From: Rhodohalobacter mucosus
GTDB taxonomy: Bacteria; Bacteroidota; Rhodothermia; Balneolales; Balneolaceae
Length of the DNA stretch: 64,000 nucleotides
Assembly (NCBI RefSeq): GCF_003150675.1
Contig: NZ_QGGB01000005.1
Location: forward strand, 1 to 64,000
Direction of reading: 5' to 3'
The notes beneath the pieces are model-generated. The model saw only the letters and a list, made by a program, of their open reading frames with translations. It had not been told where the DNA came from and did not search any database. Both the position numbers and the translations under genes were made by a program. Below are positions 496 through 30,817 of this stretch, one piece after another (within the stretch, counting starts at the first letter, position 1; every line of letters starts with the position of its first letter).

Positions 496-678
496 ATGGA
501 AAAGATTAAGAATTTTATTGACGGTGTGCGAAAAGAGATGGCCAAAGTAACCTGGCCTACACAGCAGGAGCTCATAGACAATACCATTATTGTTGTCGTG
601 TTCACCATAATTATTTCAGCATTCATCTTTGGTATCGACCAGGTTTACAGTACAATTTTGGAGGCGATTTACAGATGA
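496..678 (+). CDS. secE: Preprotein translocase subunit SecE
   Basis: A 60-residue protein with the SecE pattern: a short amphipathic N-terminal helix, the conserved EMAKVTWPT turn, and one C-terminal membrane segment (roughly residues 31-55). SecE clamps the SecY channel of the Sec translocon in the inner membrane. Sixty residues is the normal size for the single-span form. Its stop overlaps the nusG start (ATGA), indicating translational coupling. No clear ribosome binding site is visible. Confidence 0.95.
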   Translation: MEKIKNFIDGVRKEMAKVTWPTQQELIDNTIIVVVFTIIISAFIFGIDQVYSTILEAIYR

Positions 679-1241
679 GTTCTGATAATAGCTTCGATTG
701 GTATGTGGTTCGGTGCTTTTCAAGCCATGAACGCAAAGTAAAAGAATTTCTGGAGCGTGAAATTGAAGAGCAGGGGCTGGAACACAAAATTGATGAAATA
801 CTGATACCTACTGAAACGGTTATTGAAATCAGATCAGGTAAGAAAAAGACGAAAGAGAAAAATTTCTTTCCCGGGTATATACTCGTACACACACGCTACG
901 ATGAGGAGGTCAATAACCTTATCCAGAGCGCACCTTCATGTCTTGGTTTTTTGAAAGCCGGCCGGAGCGATGTCATTCCCACCCCTCTTAAACAGCGGGA
1001 AGTGGATCGAATCATCGGACGTGTTATGGACAATCAGGAGGCTGCTGAGAAGGGCGGTGTCGTGGATATCCCCTACAAGGAAGGAGATCTGGTTAAGGTT
1101 ATTGATGGACCATTCAAAGAATTTGACGGTACTGTACAAGAGGTGCTGCCCGACAAGCTTAAGCTTCGGGTACTTGTAAGTATCTTCGGAAGAAAAACCC
1201 CGGTTGAGGTTGACCTGAATCAGGTTGAATCAACCACTTGA
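675..1241 (+). CDS. nusG: Transcription termination/antitermination protein NusG
   Basis: 188 residues with the NusG layout: an N-terminal NGN domain beginning DWYVVRCFSSHERKV, with FFPGYILV near residue 65, then a C-terminal KOW domain (about 130-185) containing GDLVKVIDGPFKEFDG. NusG binds the RNA polymerase clamp and links transcription to Rho or to the leading ribosome. It overlaps secE by 4 nt, and rplK follows after 59 nt. Length and domain order are typical. Confidence 0.97.
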   Translation: MSSDNSFDWYVVRCFSSHERKVKEFLEREIEEQGLEHKIDEILIPTETVIEIRSGKKKTKEKNFFPGYILVHTRYDEEVNNLIQSAPSCLGFLKAGRSDVIPTPLKQREVDRIIGRVMDNQEAAEKGGVVDIPYKEGDLVKVIDGPFKEFDGTVQEVLPDKLKLRVLVSIFGRKTPVEVDLNQVESTT

Positions 1242-1300
1242 GAACTTAAACGTGAGCTATTACGCAGCAAACAGAAGCACGAATCGCTAATTGATTCTAT

Positions 1301-1729
1301 ATGGCAAAAAAAGTAGATAAAGTGCTAAAACTTCAAATTGTTGGCGGCCAGGCAAATCCTGCGCCACCGGTAGGTCCTGCTTTAGGCCAGGCCGGAATCA
1401 ACATTATGGAGTTTTGTAAAGCATTTAATGCAAAAACCCAGGATAAAGCGGGCACGATTATCCCCGTTGAGATTACGGTGTTTGCGGACAAGTCTTTTAC
1501 ATTCAAAACAAAGACTCCTCCGGCAGCTGTACTTCTCAAGAAAGCGGCGAAAATCAAGTCCGGTTCGGGTGAGCCCAACCGAAATAAAGTAGGACGGGTA
1601 ACCTGGGCGCAGTGCAAGGAGATTGCTGAGCAGAAGATGGAAGACCTTAATGCATACGAGGTTGAACATGCTGCTGAAATGATCGCCGGCACCGCGCGTA
1701 GTATGGGTTTGCGTGTAATCCGAGATTAA
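1301..1729 (+). CDS. rplK: 50S ribosomal protein L11
   Basis: 142 residues, the standard L11 length. The proline-rich N-terminal segment [24 protein letters not shown] binds the factor-related region of 23S rRNA, and the C-terminal domain ends [12 protein letters not shown]11 forms the base of the L7/L12 stalk. The gene is in the secE-nusG-rplKAJL-rpoBC run, 17 nt before rplA. Confidence 0.97.
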
Positions 1730-1746
1730 TAATTAGGATGTAAGAA

Positions 1747-2445
1747 ATGGCAAAACGAGGCAAGAAATATCAGCAGGTCGCTGAATTGATTGACCGTGAA
1801 GCAGAATACACTATTGAAGAAGCGTGCGACCTGGTTAAAAAAACCAAGACTGCAAGCTTCGATGAGTCCGTAGATCTCGATCTTCGGCTGGGTGTAGATC
1901 CGCGACACGCCGATCAAATGGTTCGTGGTACTGTTTCGCTACCTCACGGAACCGGGAAGTCGGTACGTGTGCTTGCGTTGGTTAACGAAGCAAAACAGGA
2001 AGAAGCGAAAGAGGCCGGAGCCGATCATGTAGGCCTGGATGAGTACATTGAAAAAATTGAAGATGGCTGGGCAGATATCGATGTGATTATCGCCACGCCA
2101 GACGTAATGGGTAAAATCGGAAAACTCGGCCGTCATCTCGGCCCGAGAGGTCTGATGCCTAATCCCAAGAGCGGCACCGTAACGATGGATGTTGCGGATG
2201 CAGTAAAGGAATTTAAATCAGGAAAAATTGATTTCAGGGTAGACAAAGCAGGAATCCTGCATACCTCAATCGGTAAAGCTAGTTTTGAGCCGAATGAAAT
2301 TCGCGAAAACCTGATCTCCTTTCTGCAGACGATTATCAAACTTCGTCCTGCATCCGCAAAGGGAGCCTACATCAAAAGTGCATACATAAGCACAACGATG
2401 GGGCCCGGCATACCGATCAGCCGTTCATCCATTACCTCAATTTAG
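1747..2445 (+). CDS. rplA: 50S ribosomal protein L1
   Basis: 232 residues, the usual length for bacterial L1. It shows the family stretches [30 protein letters not shown] and [14 protein letters not shown]1 forms the mobile L1 stalk at the E site and in many bacteria represses its own operon by binding leader mRNA. The 17 nt between rplK and rplA and the 20 nt between rplA and rplJ leave no room for a separate L10-type leader. Confidence 0.97.
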
Positions 2446-2465
2446 AATTTTAACAGGTTAACAAA

Positions 2466-2990
2466 ATGCCGACACTATCAGACAAAAAGGCAATTGTTGA
2501 AGAAATTACCGAACAGCTGAATAACTCAAACGCTGTCTATATCACAAAATACACCGGCATGTCGGTTGATGATATGGGCGAGCTCAGGGGTAAATTCAGA
2601 GAAGGTAACGTGCGTTTTAAAGTGTATAAAAATACGCTCATCAAACGCGCCATGGATACAATTGGCGGATATGAAGATCTCTACCCTCACCTGGAAGACC
2701 AAAATGGTTTTGCATTTGTGGAAGAAGAGCTGGCAGCACCTGCTAAAGTGCTCAAAAACTACATTAAGGAAAAAAATAAGCCCGAATTTAAAGCGGCTTT
2801 AATTGACGGTGACTACTACAGTCAGGATCAGCTTGATTCACTCGCGGCTATGAAGTCGAAGAACGAAGTAATCGGCGATATCATGGGACTGCTGCTTTCA
2901 CCAATAACCAACGTAGTAAGCGGACTTCAGGCACAAGGCGGAAATATTGCCGGTGCTGTGAAAACTATTGCCGAGAAAGGCGAAGAATAA
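2466..2990 (+). CDS. rplJ: 50S ribosomal protein L10
   Basis: 174 residues with the L10 N-terminal rRNA-binding domain (KKAIVEEITEQLNNSNAVYITKYTGMSVDDM, then RFKVYKNTLIKRAM) and a C-terminal helix that carries L7/L12 dimers. It anchors the stalk that recruits translational GTPases. It sits directly between rplA and rplL, as in nearly all bacteria. Confidence 0.96.
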   Translation: MPTLSDKKAIVEEITEQLNNSNAVYITKYTGMSVDDMGELRGKFREGNVRFKVYKNTLIKRAMDTIGGYEDLYPHLEDQNGFAFVEEELAAPAKVLKNYIKEKNKPEFKAALIDGDYYSQDQLDSLAAMKSKNEVIGDIMGLLLSPITNVVSGLQAQGGNIAGAVKTIAEKGEE

Positions 2991-3044
2991 AATCCAACAC
3001 ACAACAATTTTTTAATTAAAACCGACGAACGGAGAATACGAACA

Positions 3045-3422
3045 ATGGCTGACGTTAAAGAAATAGCAGAACAACTCGTTAACTTAACGATCAAAGAGGC
3101 TAATGAACTTGCAAAAGTTCTTGAAGAGGAATACGACATCAAACCGGCTGCAGCTGCAGTTGCCGTGGCAGGACCTGCCGGCGGCGGTGAAGGTGGCGCT
3201 GCAGAAGAGAAGGACGAATTTGATGTTGTCCTGAACTCAGCAGGTGCCAAGAAAATCGGCGTGATCAAAGAAGTACGTGCAATTACCGGTCTTGGACTGA
3301 AAGAAGCCAAAGAACTGGTTGACGGTGCTCCCAATACGATCAAAGAGGCTGCTCCAAAAGCAGAAGCCGAAGAGATCAAGGCTAAACTCGAAGAGGCAGG
3401 CGCTGAAGTAGAACTTAAGTGA
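3045..3422 (+). CDS. rplL: 50S ribosomal protein L7/L12
   Basis: 125 residues with the three expected parts: an N-terminal dimerisation helix, an Ala/Gly-rich hinge (about residues 35-55, [14 protein letters not shown]), and the globular C-terminal domain with [26 protein letters not shown]. It is the multicopy stalk protein that stimulates EF-Tu and EF-G. A hairpin attenuator follows before rpoB. Confidence 0.97.
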
Positions 3423-3449
3423 TCCCTGCATAGTACCCTTTTGCCATAG

Positions 3450-3479
3450 CCAATACCCTGTAAATGGGTATTGGCTTTT
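3450..3479 (+). terminator. rplL-rpoB intergenic attenuator hairpin
   Basis: A perfect 9-bp stem (CCAATACCC / GGGTATTGG) with loop TGTAAAT is followed by CTTTT. It lies in the 155-nt gap between rplL and rpoB. Partial termination at this position lets E. coli make far more L7/L12 than RNA polymerase. The weak U tract here fits partial rather than full termination, but strength cannot be read from sequence. Confidence 0.7.
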
Positions 3480-3577
3480 GGCGTCTTATTTAGAGAACAG
3501 CTTGAGGTAGCTCGTACCTCTTTCTTCCCAGGGAAGAAATTCCGCACCTTATTTTTAACCTAAAGGAGATCATCCTT

Positions 3578-29620: not shown

Positions 29621-29957
29621 CTGTCCGGTTTAATTATGGGTAAAATTGTATATGGGATAAAATACCCTAAGAATGAGTGAAGATAAAGAGGGAGTTGTGA
29701 GATGTTTGATGGACGATGGACGATGGACGATGGACGATGGACGATGGACGATGGACGATGGACGATGGACGATGGACGATGTGTGACTTGTGACTGGTGA
29801 CTGGCGATTTGGATATCACAATGGAAAACATTCAACTTATCCGTGTCCCATCTCAATTACAGAAAAAAGGTTGGAATTCGGTTTCACCATTGATTGGAAA
29901 AAGTGATATATTTTGTGCTCTCAACAATCTGAAAAAGGTTGATGATTAATCAGCTAT
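29621..29957. other. Non-coding region upstream of proS with heptamer satellite
   Basis: 337 nt with no credible gene. It holds the proS promoter region at the left, then the heptamer tandem repeat, then about 140 nt of AT-rich DNA without visible structure before the first tRNA-derived pseudogene. Open frames through the repeat encode only repetitive peptide. Confidence 0.7.
29708..29812. repeat. Heptamer tandem repeat (GATGGAC)n with decaying tail
   Basis: Ten perfect head-to-tail copies of GATGGAC cover 29708-29777. The seven-base period continues in phase for about five degenerate units (GATGTGT, GACTTGT, GACTGGT, GACTGGC, GATTTGG). This looks like a slippage-prone minisatellite with an older decayed edge. 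It is about 90-190 nt upstream of the proS start, so it lies in or near its leader or promoter. Confidence 0.95.
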
Positions 29958-30050
29958 GGCGTGGTAGCTTCCTCCCGAAAGATCGGGAGGAGTAAGAGCC
30001 TCGGATTCATATCCCGAATGCTTTCGGGGCGAAGGTTCAAGTCCCGTCAT
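29958..30050 (+). pseudogene. tRNA-Met-derived pseudogene A with two palindromic insertions
   Basis: Aligned with the intact tRNA-Met at 30208, it keeps GGCGTGGTAGCT, TAAGAGC, the anticodon arm TCGGATTCATA and the T-arm piece GGTTCAAGTCCC. The D loop is replaced by a 9-bp palindrome (29970-29991, TCCTCCCGA / TCGGGAGGA, loop AAGA). The 3' side of the anticodon arm plus variable region is replaced by a second one (30012-30029, CCCGAA / TTCGGG). The normal acceptor 3' strand is gone. It cannot be a working tRNA-Met. Confidence 0.85.
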
Positions 30051-30089
30051 ATGTGATGTAGTTTCATTTATTGATTTTTTTGAATACAA

Positions 30090-30177
30090 GGCGTGGCAGC
30101 TTCCTCCCGAATGTCGGGAGGAGTAAGAGCGTCGGATTCATATCCGCCGGTTGGCGGACGGGGGTTCAAGCCTTGTA
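30090..30177 (+). pseudogene. tRNA-Met-derived pseudogene B with two palindromic insertions
   Basis: Same plan as copy A. After GGCGTGGCAGCT the D loop is replaced by TCCTCCCGA-ATG-TCGGGAGGA (30102-30122); after the ATTCATA anticodon loop the stem is replaced by TCCGCC-GGTT-GGCGGA (30143-30158); GGGTTCAAG of the T arm remains. The upstream spacer (TTTTTTTGAATACAA) is nearly the same as that before the intact gene, showing tandem duplication of tRNA plus spacer. Confidence 0.85.
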
Positions 30178-30207
30178 AATGTGAATTTTTGATTTTATTG
30201 AATACAA

Positions 30208-30281
30208 GGCGTGGTAGCTCAGGTGGTAAGAGCGTCGGATTCATAACCCGGAGGCCGAGGGTTCAAGTCCCTCCCACGCTA
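30208..30281 (+). tRNA. trnM: tRNA-Met (CAT)
   Basis: Complete cloverleaf: acceptor GGCGTGG / CCACGCT (terminal G-U), D stem GCTC/GAGC, anticodon loop TTCATAA with CAT, T arm GAGGG-TTCAAGT-CCCTC, discriminator A. CCA is not encoded. The base of the anticodon loop has an A31-C39 mismatch, slightly unusual. CAT could also mean initiator Met or lysidine-modified Ile; the first-pair G-U and lack of the GGG/CCC initiator stem favour elongator Met or Ile2. A strong terminator follows directly. Confidence 0.85.
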
Positions 30282-30285
30282 CATT

Positions 30286-30324
30286 AAAAGCCCAATCCAA
30301 TGAAAGTTGGGTTGGGCTTTTTTT
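30286..30324 (+). terminator. Intrinsic terminator after tRNA-Met
   Basis: A 15-bp stem (AAAAGCCCAATCCAA / TTGGGTTGGGCTTTT, one G-U pair, loop TGAAAG) runs into a T tract ending at 30324. An almost identical copy follows the tRNA 3' half at 30706, so the terminator was duplicated with the tRNA. Confidence 0.9.
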
Positions 30325-30363
30325 ATAAAGAGAAAGGGAGAGAAATAAAAAAAAGGGGGAATC

Positions 30364-30621
30364 ATGTATCATGTCTATGTGCTGCATTCACCGGTGTACG
30401 ATAAAATCTATATCGGGTACTCTTCTGATGTAGGAGTCAGGTTCATTTATCATAACCAGGGACCAAAAAAAGGGTGGTCCAGCCGCTATCGCCCGTGGTA
30501 TTTGATCTGGCTGGAAGCTTACCAAGGCAAGAAAGAAGCGATGATCCGAGAGAGACAACTCAAAAGCGCACGTGGCAGAAGGTGGATTCGCGAGGAGTTG
30601 ATCAGGGCTTGCTGGGTGTAA
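30364..30621 (+). CDS. Small GIY-YIG nuclease family protein
   Basis: 85 residues, one GIY-YIG domain of the UvrC-N/UPF0213 type. Y5 (VYVLHS), Y16 (IYIGYS), R26, H30 (IYHNQG) and E58 (KKEAMIRERQLK) match the catalytic set. The start has a purine-rich AGGGGG a few nt upstream. The stop codon TAA at 30619 is formed by the TAAGAGC of a tRNA D arm, so the gene runs into the tRNA-derived remnant. Members may act as DNA-nicking or homing-type enzymes; function is not known. It lies between two copies of tRNA-Met 3' sequence plus terminator. Confidence 0.85.
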   Translation: MYHVYVLHSPVYDKIYIGYSSDVGVRFIYHNQGPKKGWSSRYRPWYLIWLEAYQGKKEAMIRERQLKSARGRRWIREELIRACWV

Positions 30622-30701
30622 GAGCGTCGGATTCATATCCGCCGGCTGGCGGACGAGGGTTCTTCCGAAGGAATGCCTTTGGCAAAGTCCCTCCCACGCT
30701 A
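30615..30701 (+). pseudogene. tRNA-Met 3' half (copy C) with two palindromic insertions
   Basis: Starts at GGTGTAAGAGCG (D loop) and keeps the anticodon loop, T arm and the full acceptor 3' strand CTCCCACGCTA. Two palindromes interrupt it: TCCGCC-GGCT-GGCGGA (30638-30653) at the same site as in copy B, and a 22-nt insertion in the T loop (30663-30684; 7-bp stem CCGAAGG / CCTTTGG). The 5' half is replaced by the GIY-YIG gene. Confidence 0.87.
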
Positions 30702-30705
30702 CATT

Positions 30706-30743
30706 GAAAGCCCACTCCAATGAAAGTTGGGTTGGGCTTTTTT
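30706..30743 (+). terminator. Duplicated copy of the tRNA-Met terminator
   Basis: Stem GAAAGCCCACTCCAA / TTGGGTTGGGCTTTT with loop TGAAAG and a T tract. It differs from the first copy by two bases and now ends transcription after GIY-YIG and copy C. Confidence 0.85.
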
Positions 30744-30817
30744 ATTGGAGAGCACGTACTTCCCAAAGAATTGTGAAACGACTATCCCAAAAACCTGCTT
30801 GGGAATTCATTGAGAAT

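Follow-up and report, generated by a model that had tools for sequence, protein, structure and literature searches.

SegB of phages T4 and T6 is a free-standing GIY-YIG homing endonuclease that is encoded beside tRNA genes, cuts within tRNA genes and drives tandem amplification of tRNA and nuclease together; in the passages of the report consulted, its phage homologues are described as enriched near tRNAs without favoured isotypes (PMC13096335). Here, we analyzed a window of 64,000 nucleotides from Rhodohalobacter mucosus (NZ_QGGB01000005.1, positions 1-64,000, forward strand; GCF_003150675.1), in which a gene for an 85-residue GIY-YIG protein sits between an intact tRNA-Met gene and a broken tRNA-Met copy that is filled with short palindromes. 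Related genes adjoin tRNA genes in several phyla, and the clade of the nuclease predicts the tRNA isotype at its locus and largely also the palindrome family. We propose that the locus is probably a small selfish, homing-like GIY-YIG element living on a tRNA gene, with one intact gene kept and the other copy filled by a palindrome at the presumed target.

The likeness to SegB lies in the GIY-YIG gene adjoining tRNA genes, and SegB sets a precedent for an enzyme that cuts tRNA genes and amplifies them in tandem. As in systems of the SegB type, the enzyme has a catalytic domain with its active-site residues, adjoins its presumed target and is patchily distributed among close relatives. The separate DNA-binding module of such systems, however, was found by Pfam in none of the four proteins scanned (85, 80, 80 and 88 amino acids): the present nucleases, from bacterial genome records, have 80-90 residues and little beyond the catalytic domain. 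Moreover, our clades track tRNA isotype whereas the SegB passages report none favoured, and most of our loci carry a palindrome-filled partial tRNA copy, of which those passages make no mention (PMC13096335). The reported SegB motif RAWTSGAAC (PMC13096335) is the reverse complement of GTTCSAWTY, a string that by our reading looks T-loop-like and so would lie near several of our palindrome sites.

The arrangement also resembles repetitive extragenic palindromic (REP) sequences and their REP-associated tyrosine transposases (RAYTs), in that one nuclease gene is framed by short palindromes and similar palindromes are dispersed between genes. In these Y1 systems a short invariant tag, GTAG or CGTC for example, accompanies the REP palindromes. 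A link between many dispersed palindromes and an enzyme holds here for palindromes with TCCGCC arms and weakly for those with CCTG arms. In contrast to RAYT systems, the enzyme in our unit is a GIY-YIG nuclease and not a Y1/HUH transposase (no search for a RAYT was made in the rest of the genome), the home of the palindromes is a tRNA gene, and no constant tag was seen by eye beside the dispersed palindromes, the flanks of 60 of which vary. RAYT-like palindromes were therefore rejected.

Small palindromes in or near structured RNA genes also include the Rickettsia palindromic elements, the cyanobacterial small dispersed repeats and the mitochondrial double-hairpin elements, all mobile by unknown means. 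We know of no dedicated nuclease for any of these, and the nuclease inside the present unit sets it apart from them by description rather than by sequence. Islands that integrate into tRNA genes with a tyrosine recombinase leave a partial tRNA duplication at the edge of the mobile unit and keep one intact tRNA, as seen here. The window unit differs in being shorter than 1 kb, in having its interrupted sites in the D, anticodon or T arms and in containing no integrase frame: between the intact tRNA and the broken copy there are only the GIY-YIG frame and unsupported overlapping frames, the wider surroundings not having been searched. The solved sequences and folds nearest to the window protein belong to Slx1 and UPF0213 (YhbQ-like). 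Slx1 pairs with Slx4 and possesses an additional domain, and to our knowledge neither protein has been given a tRNA-linked mobile role.

In the open-licence PubMed Central literature, no description of the layout was found among the matches listed, either for the palindromes or for tRNA-linked GIY-YIG genes in bacteria, the nearest being the SegB paper. None of six exact palindrome strings occurs in any paper there, and a search on UPF0213 gave no match. An initial annotation of this DNA had stated that it knew of no described system with such a layout, which agrees with that survey. The parts are of known kinds, namely a GIY-YIG homing-type nuclease and REP-like palindromes; their union in one unit with isotype-specific clades was not found there and is not known to us.

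The nuclease gene lies between an intact and a broken tRNA-Met

The window array comprises one intact tRNA-Met gene and three degraded flanking copies (Table 1), an arrangement proposed in the initial annotation and recovered by direct reading of the sequence, ARAGORN and RF00005. Judged from its sequence, the intact gene appears to be of the elongator type. On one side of the nuclease open reading frame (ORF) lie the intact tRNA and a terminator, on the other copy 3 and a second terminator. The TAA codon that ends the ORF runs into the beginning of copy 3, and the tRNA end and terminator are duplicated behind that copy over 68 bases that are 91% identical. A scan of the window at Rfam gathering scores returned two tRNAs only and no self-splicing intron around the ORF, which moreover lies outside the intact, continuous tRNA. 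A group I intron with a GIY-YIG ORF was rejected on these grounds.

The coordinates first given for the six palindromes, in the D loop, the anticodon 3' arm and the T loop, all agree with the sequence. It was also correctly noted that one anticodon-arm site is used in all three copies by differing palindromes: the site reads TTCATA/palindrome/CG and holds two families, TCCCGA and TCCGCC. Two families at one site would fit module swapping by conversion, as the annotation had offered. Its description of the palindromes as insertions applies to the T-loop palindrome of copy 3; some others, by reading of the sequence, replace tRNA bases (6 by 22 and 10 by 16). The anticodon-arm palindrome of copy 3 matches the Met-type loci of other phyla in both site and family.

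Table 1 Features of the tRNA-Met array in the window.
Feature	Position	Strand	Remarks
Broken tRNA-Met copy 1	29958-30048	+	Has 5' part, D arm, anticodon arm and part of T arm
Palindrome, D loop of copy 1	29970-29991	+	TCCTCCCGAAAGATCGGGAGGA; TCCCGA family
Palindrome, anticodon 3'-arm site of copy 1	30012-30029	+	TCCCGAATGCTTTCGGGG
Broken tRNA-Met copy 2	30090-30175	+	
Palindrome, D loop of copy 2	30102-30122	+	TCCTCCCGAATGTCGGGAGGA
Palindrome, anticodon 3'-arm site of copy 2	30143-30158	+	TCCGCCGGTTGGCGGA
Intact tRNA-Met (CAT)	30208-30282	+	ARAGORN; RF00005, 65.6 bits
Terminator-like hairpin and T-run 3' of intact tRNA	30286-30326	+	
GIY-YIG endonuclease ORF	30364-30621	+	85 aa; PF01541
Broken tRNA-Met copy 3	30619-30702	+	Without about the first 18 bases; 3' end retained
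Palindrome, anticodon 3'-arm site of copy 3	30638-30653	+	TCCGCCGGCTGGCGGA
Second palindrome of copy 3, T loop	30663-30684	+	TTCCGAAGGAATGCCTTTGGCA; clean 22-base insertion 3' of GGTTC
Second terminator copy, 3' of copy 3	30706-30745	+	Part of the 68-base repeat

Related loci share tRNA, strand and palindrome position across phyla

One profile search of genome contigs, with an alignment of four R. mucosus proteins as the query, yielded 60 loci from Bacteroidota, Balneolota, KSB1, Cloacimonadota, Ignavibacteriota and the candidate phyla radiation (CPR), a sample that the single peptide pattern of the search biases toward the queried clades. A tRNA gene was present at 0-561 bp in 49 of the 60, always on the strand of the nuclease (49/49); the nearest was Met in 26 loci, Leu in 17, Lys in 3, Asn in 2 and Arg in 1. 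Frequently, a second, partial tRNA copy was present on the opposite side of the nuclease gene.

Met loci (Balneola, Ferruginibacter, Bacteroidales, KSB1 and others) read CTCATA/TCCGCC(3-4 bases)GGCGGA/CG...GGTTC, like the window. In Leu loci the palindrome is CCTGCC...GGCAGG, measures about 20 bases and borders the D loop or the T loop, in several cases as a clean insertion, and Lys loci, from CPR genomes, have TCCGCC between the D loop and the anticodon loop. In tRNA numbering, palindrome edges fell at 36-38 on the left and 47-49 on the right in 24 Met palindromes, at 23/32 or 24/33 in 5 Lys palindromes, and at 14/15, 23/24, 63/64 and others for Leu; the 88 palindromes mapped include false ones (terminators or the tRNA's own stem), which were kept in the family counts below as well. 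Flank matching was scored in the 49 loci with a tRNA, leaving out the other 11. In 42 of them at least one palindrome had a flank that matched the tRNA at 9 of 10 bases, against a mean of 1.3 and a maximum of 5 in 100 shuffles of the tRNAs, and both flanks matched (8 of 10 bases) in 31, against a mean of 0.2 and a maximum of 2 in 100 shuffles. At three loci (L067, L073 and L074) the nuclease frame ends within the palindrome, whose loop supplies the stop codon.

Nuclease clade predicts tRNA isotype and largely palindrome family

The nuclease tree holds 54 of the 60 relatives (frames shorter than 60 residues were omitted) and the four R. mucosus proteins over 86 columns; many of its forks are unresolved, and near-copies also cluster in it. 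On this tree tRNA isotype requires 5 changes, which is the minimum, compared to a mean of 19.7 after shuffling (0 of 200 as low). The Leu clade (support 100/97) spans Bacteroidota, Ignavibacteriota, a Nomurabacterium and R. mucosus, and a clade formed by L089, L101 and the Gly-locus nuclease of R. mucosus (100/99) has TCCCGA palindromes. By target, TCCG palindromes were found in 23 Met loci and 1 Leu locus and CCTG palindromes in 16 Leu and 0 Met loci, where 7 loci without a tRNA of their own were assigned to Met or Leu by the best-matching tRNA or broken copy. TCCG palindromes accompany Lys as well as Met loci.

A minimal GIY-YIG domain

The window protein matches PF01541 (E=8.9e-14), and its AlphaFold2 model is a single confident domain with a predicted local distance difference test score (pLDDT) of 94.6. 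Foldseek placed this model closest to Slx1 (6seh, E=0.004) and UPF0213 (1zg2); by sequence, the nearest solved proteins were UPF0213 (1ywl, E=1.3e-10, then 1zg2), followed by Slx1 (6seh). Seven residues, Y5, Y16, G18, R26, H30, E63 and K67, are invariant in 25 aligned sequences and include the active-site Tyr, Tyr, Arg and Glu. T5orf172 matched two of the four scanned proteins just above the cut-off, over the same residues as GIY-YIG. A tblastn search of 50,697 phage records with the window protein returned 2, each a partial (64%) match at 37% identity, and PHROGs gave no match for this protein and weak ones for two of the four. A close phage origin of the window protein was rejected on these results.

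The same layout recurs in the R. mucosus genome

PF01541 has 12 matches in the genome, 10 above the cut-off, two of these in long frames. Of the eight small stand-alone frames, seven have a tRNA as neighbour. The loci concerned are those of elongator Met, initiator Met, Leu, Ser and Gly, and every one of the five has a broken tRNA copy with a palindrome, split in the case of Leu. At the initiator-Met locus, which has its own GIY-YIG gene, the anticodon-arm site used in the window is occupied by a third sequence, TCCGTC...GACGGA. At the Gly locus the order is four 5'-part units, the intact gene, a terminator, a GIY-YIG gene, a broken copy with a palindrome and a second GIY-YIG gene. Broken copies were also found at the Asp, Gly, both Arg, Leu-taa, Ala (rRNA spacer), Ser, Glu, Val, Leu-gag and initiator-Met loci, and by eye only at Thr; the Asp locus consists of units of about 101 bp with the 3' part and terminator and a palindrome in the T loop. 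In the Leu-taa array (L004:300-900, minus strand), every second unit has a TCCCGA palindrome that is divided by an additional insert, which looks like the entry of one element into another.

The pattern TCCGCCN{3,8}GGCGGA occurs 24 times in the genome against 1 for its reversed control, and TCCCGAN{2,8}TCGGGA 53 times against 2. Within 1 kb of a tRNA start lie 19 of the 50 TCCCGA palindromes listed (0.76 expected), which sit in 8 loci so that tandem copies are not independent, and 4 of the 24 TCCGCC palindromes (0.36 expected). Two of the tRNA-near TCCCGA palindromes (C3:58670 and C5:387948) lie, by reading, outside any tRNA copy.

Nuclease loci are patchy among close relatives

A close Met-type nuclease, taken as a match of at least 66 bits with weaker or partial matches (e.g. 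in G020, G030 and G048) counted as absent, was detected in 10 of 58 genomes of the family and was patchy within genera. For the best 30 family loci, 23 had a tRNA in the fetched stretch (Met, Val, Asn, Ser or Gly), on the same strand in 23 of 23. Comparison of empty and filled sites in related genomes, as suggested by the annotation, was possible at the site orthologous to the window, which was recovered in 18 of 20 congeners with proS adjoining in 17 of the 18. None of the 18 had a nuclease within the fetched stretch. By eye, over about 200 bases on each side, 12 had the intact tRNA only and 6 had a broken copy. One of the 12 empty sites (L223) has TCCCGA-like hairpins and no tRNA piece, and two of the six with a broken copy (L210 and L225) have a palindrome at the same site. 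These sites, 12 empty and 6 with relics, indicate that units come and go at this position.

Two further nuclease relatives lie at the RNase P RNA gene (L133:23-256, plus strand, and L134:1543-1737, minus strand, in G036 and G037). RF00010 matches adjoin or overlap the ORF end in both, and the sequences flanking the ORFs are complementary over 11 and 19 bases, so that the ORF seemingly lies in a helix loop of rnpB.

Dispersed TCCGCC palindromes accompany Met-type nucleases

Family genomes with a Met-type nuclease had a median of 14.5 TCCGCC palindromes (n=10, none zero), those within nuclease loci included, compared to a median of 0 in genomes without one (26 of 48 zero; p=3.4e-5). The difference held in a within-genus permutation (p=1.5e-4), and the count separates carriers from non-carriers inside three genera. 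The reversed control of the pattern occurred 0 or 1 times in 57 of the 58 genomes and 12 times in G014. Among the 49 genomes of the wider set, 26 Met and 17 Leu genomes were compared, omitting Asn, Arg, three Lys and L089 (Met, TCCCGA clade). Without correction for host phylogeny, TCCGCC palindromes outside the nuclease locus were present in 24 of the 26 Met genomes but in 5 of the 17 Leu genomes (p=2.6e-5).

Counted by eye, the loop is 3 bases long in 40 of the 41 palindromes listed (of 63) in G072, as at the nuclease locus of that genome (TGA), whereas it is 4 bases long in 33 of 33 in G064, G067, G077 and G081. Eight of 60 dispersed palindromes form the tip of an inverted repeat that extends beyond them (pair score at least 6), compared to 2.3 with shuffled flanks (maximum 7 in 1000); for the mean score of the 60, p=0.01, repeats within a genome not being independent. 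Together with the structure-specific nature of the nearest folds (Slx1) and the palindrome edges at stem-loop positions, this excess suggests that the nuclease may recognise structure rather than sequence.

In one Bacteroidales genome, a locus (L163, G072:C84:1640-2040) has, by eye, tandem tRNA-Ser-like pieces with TCCGCC palindromes in the D loop.

A proposed homing-like element and its alternatives

Because a GIY-YIG gene is linked to the tRNA and the palindrome family largely tracks the nuclease clade, the locus looks like a nuclease element with its palindrome and not like stray palindromes entering decayed tRNAs. In the selfish homing-like element that we favour, the unit would combine a minimal GIY-YIG gene with a partly duplicated target tRNA that has a palindrome at the target position, the uninterrupted tRNA lying on the other side. 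The nuclease, with little beyond a catalytic domain whose fold is nearest to Slx1, would cut the tRNA gene at a stem-loop position, and repair from an element-bearing copy would insert the nuclease gene and duplicate part of the tRNA, as for free-standing homing endonucleases. The palindrome, observed at the presumed target, would leave the second copy unfit both as tRNA and as target, and this copy could hence persist. Recombination between direct repeats would produce tandem arrays, delete nucleases and leave relics; such arrays and relics (window copies 1 and 2) are present. Palindromes of the same family elsewhere may be left behind when the same activity meets other hairpins, or may be its non-autonomous relatives, as would be consistent with the observed TCCGCC association. 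The initial annotation had proposed that palindromic mobile elements target tRNA stem-loops. The shared stem-loop positions across phyla and the excess of some dispersed copies at hairpin tips support the targeting, and the random scatter that it named as a counter-finding was not borne out, since TCCCGA and TCCGCC are enriched near tRNAs; what it had missed is the tRNA-linked GIY-YIG gene and the tie between palindrome family and clade.

Several findings weigh against this proposal. Position, strand, clade specificity, patchiness, arrays and the TCCGCC-nuclease association were directly seen; cleavage, homing and transposition were not. The presumed target is still present in the intact tRNA beside the nuclease, which calls for some limit on self-cutting. 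No tRNA was detected at 11 of the 60 loci (by eye, several are at contig ends or have a tRNA piece), at 7 of the best 30 family loci or at one stand-alone nuclease of R. mucosus (C10:281672), and the Asp, Arg, Glu and Leu-taa arrays have palindromes without a nuclease in the fetched stretch. Palindromes of other families occur as well in 8 Met and 5 Leu loci (some are terminators or own stems), TCCCGA occurs in 3 loci assigned to Met, and the window array itself holds both of its families. TCCGCC-rich genomes can lack a detected Met-type nuclease (G009 with 23, G030 and G048 with 17, G028 and G039 with 15, G049 with 12 and G037 with 11). Finally, CCTG palindromes outside the locus show no clear tie to Leu-locus genomes (8 of 17 Leu and 6 of 26 Met genomes; Fisher p=0.18, rank test p=0.04).

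A wider and more tentative extension of the homing-like element is that the GIY-YIG nuclease mobilises REP-like palindromes. Each clade might recognise DNA hairpins and fill or replace their loops with its own palindrome, while its gene is kept safe in a duplicated essential RNA gene (a tRNA or, seemingly, RNase P RNA in two relatives). If so, this would be a palindrome-based mobile system without a transposase or HUH enzyme and would explain intergenic palindrome families in Bacteroidota and relatives that have no known mobiliser. The homing-like element itself joins selfish homing nucleases, REP-like palindromes and broken tRNA arrays, which are usually seen separately. It would mean that essential tRNA genes of several bacterial phyla are parasitised by nucleases of fewer than 100 residues whose clades each keep to one tRNA type, and it would offer a candidate source for the short palindromes that such genomes have within genes and between them. 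Every clade supplies a palindrome together with a small enzyme and the position it is predicted to target, so that the origin of the palindromes can be tested directly.

The alternative that fares best, which we consider unlikely, is that two independent things coincide: a tRNA-linked homing nuclease makes partial copies, and unrelated REP-like palindromes enter any tolerant hairpin loop, collecting in broken copies where they do no harm. The wide scatter of palindromes outside tRNAs (including 23S rRNA and a broken 5S copy), the arrays without a nuclease and the CCTG counts that do not clearly track the Leu type would all follow. Against independence stand a palindrome that is common in the nuclease-adjacent copy, at the same position across phyla and of a family that largely tracks the clade, and TCCGCC counts that split carriers from non-carriers within three genera.

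It is improbable that the broken copy and its hairpin are a selected, functional RNA part, such as a tRNA-like element regulating the nuclease or a signal for processing or termination, rather than a scar. Such a role would suit the 3' end and terminator retained in many loci, the retention of the hairpin over large distances and the overlap with the ORF end at some loci, as in the three frames that end in a palindrome; the retained part of the tRNA varies, however, loop and stem letters differ between copies and many copies are decayed. Passive decay, in which tRNA genes are duplicated in tandem and then lost at random and the hairpins are fortuitous or are terminators, would explain the tandem direct repeats and the plainly decayed copies but is very improbable given a site, palindrome and neighbouring nuclease that are constant across phyla, with 42 of 49 loci against at most 5 for shuffled tRNAs. 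A collapsed or chimeric assembly, a concern the initial annotation had also raised, would be favoured by the difficulty of assembling near-identical tandem units from short reads. We rejected it: the layout, assessed here from assemblies, recurs at several R. mucosus loci and in numerous assemblies of unrelated bacteria, among them the named isolates Flavobacterium orientale (L093), Algoriphagus aquaeductus (L107) and Altibacter lentus (L104).

Palindromes in rRNA genes and neighbouring repeats

A broken 3' end of 5S rRNA with two TCCGCC palindromes (L007:39-95) lies behind an intact 5S gene (L007:322-430), with a similar case at L018:1-460, and judged by palindrome positions the pair recurs on contigs C11, C12 and C14 (C12 was not fetched). 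On contig C14, a TCCGCC palindrome (L007:1237-1252) lies inside the 23S rRNA gene (large-subunit rRNA match 572-3494), at what we take to be a variable helix tip. A repeated module places a CCCCGGGC...GCCCGGGG-like hairpin about a dozen bases from a TCCGCC palindrome (L167-L169, L171 and L174; C1:216-219 kb, C2:284.7 kb and C9:305 kb). In the window, a run of GATGGAC heptamers occupies 29700-29785, immediately 5' of the array, and comparable short-phrase repeats occur near several palindromes of the same genome.

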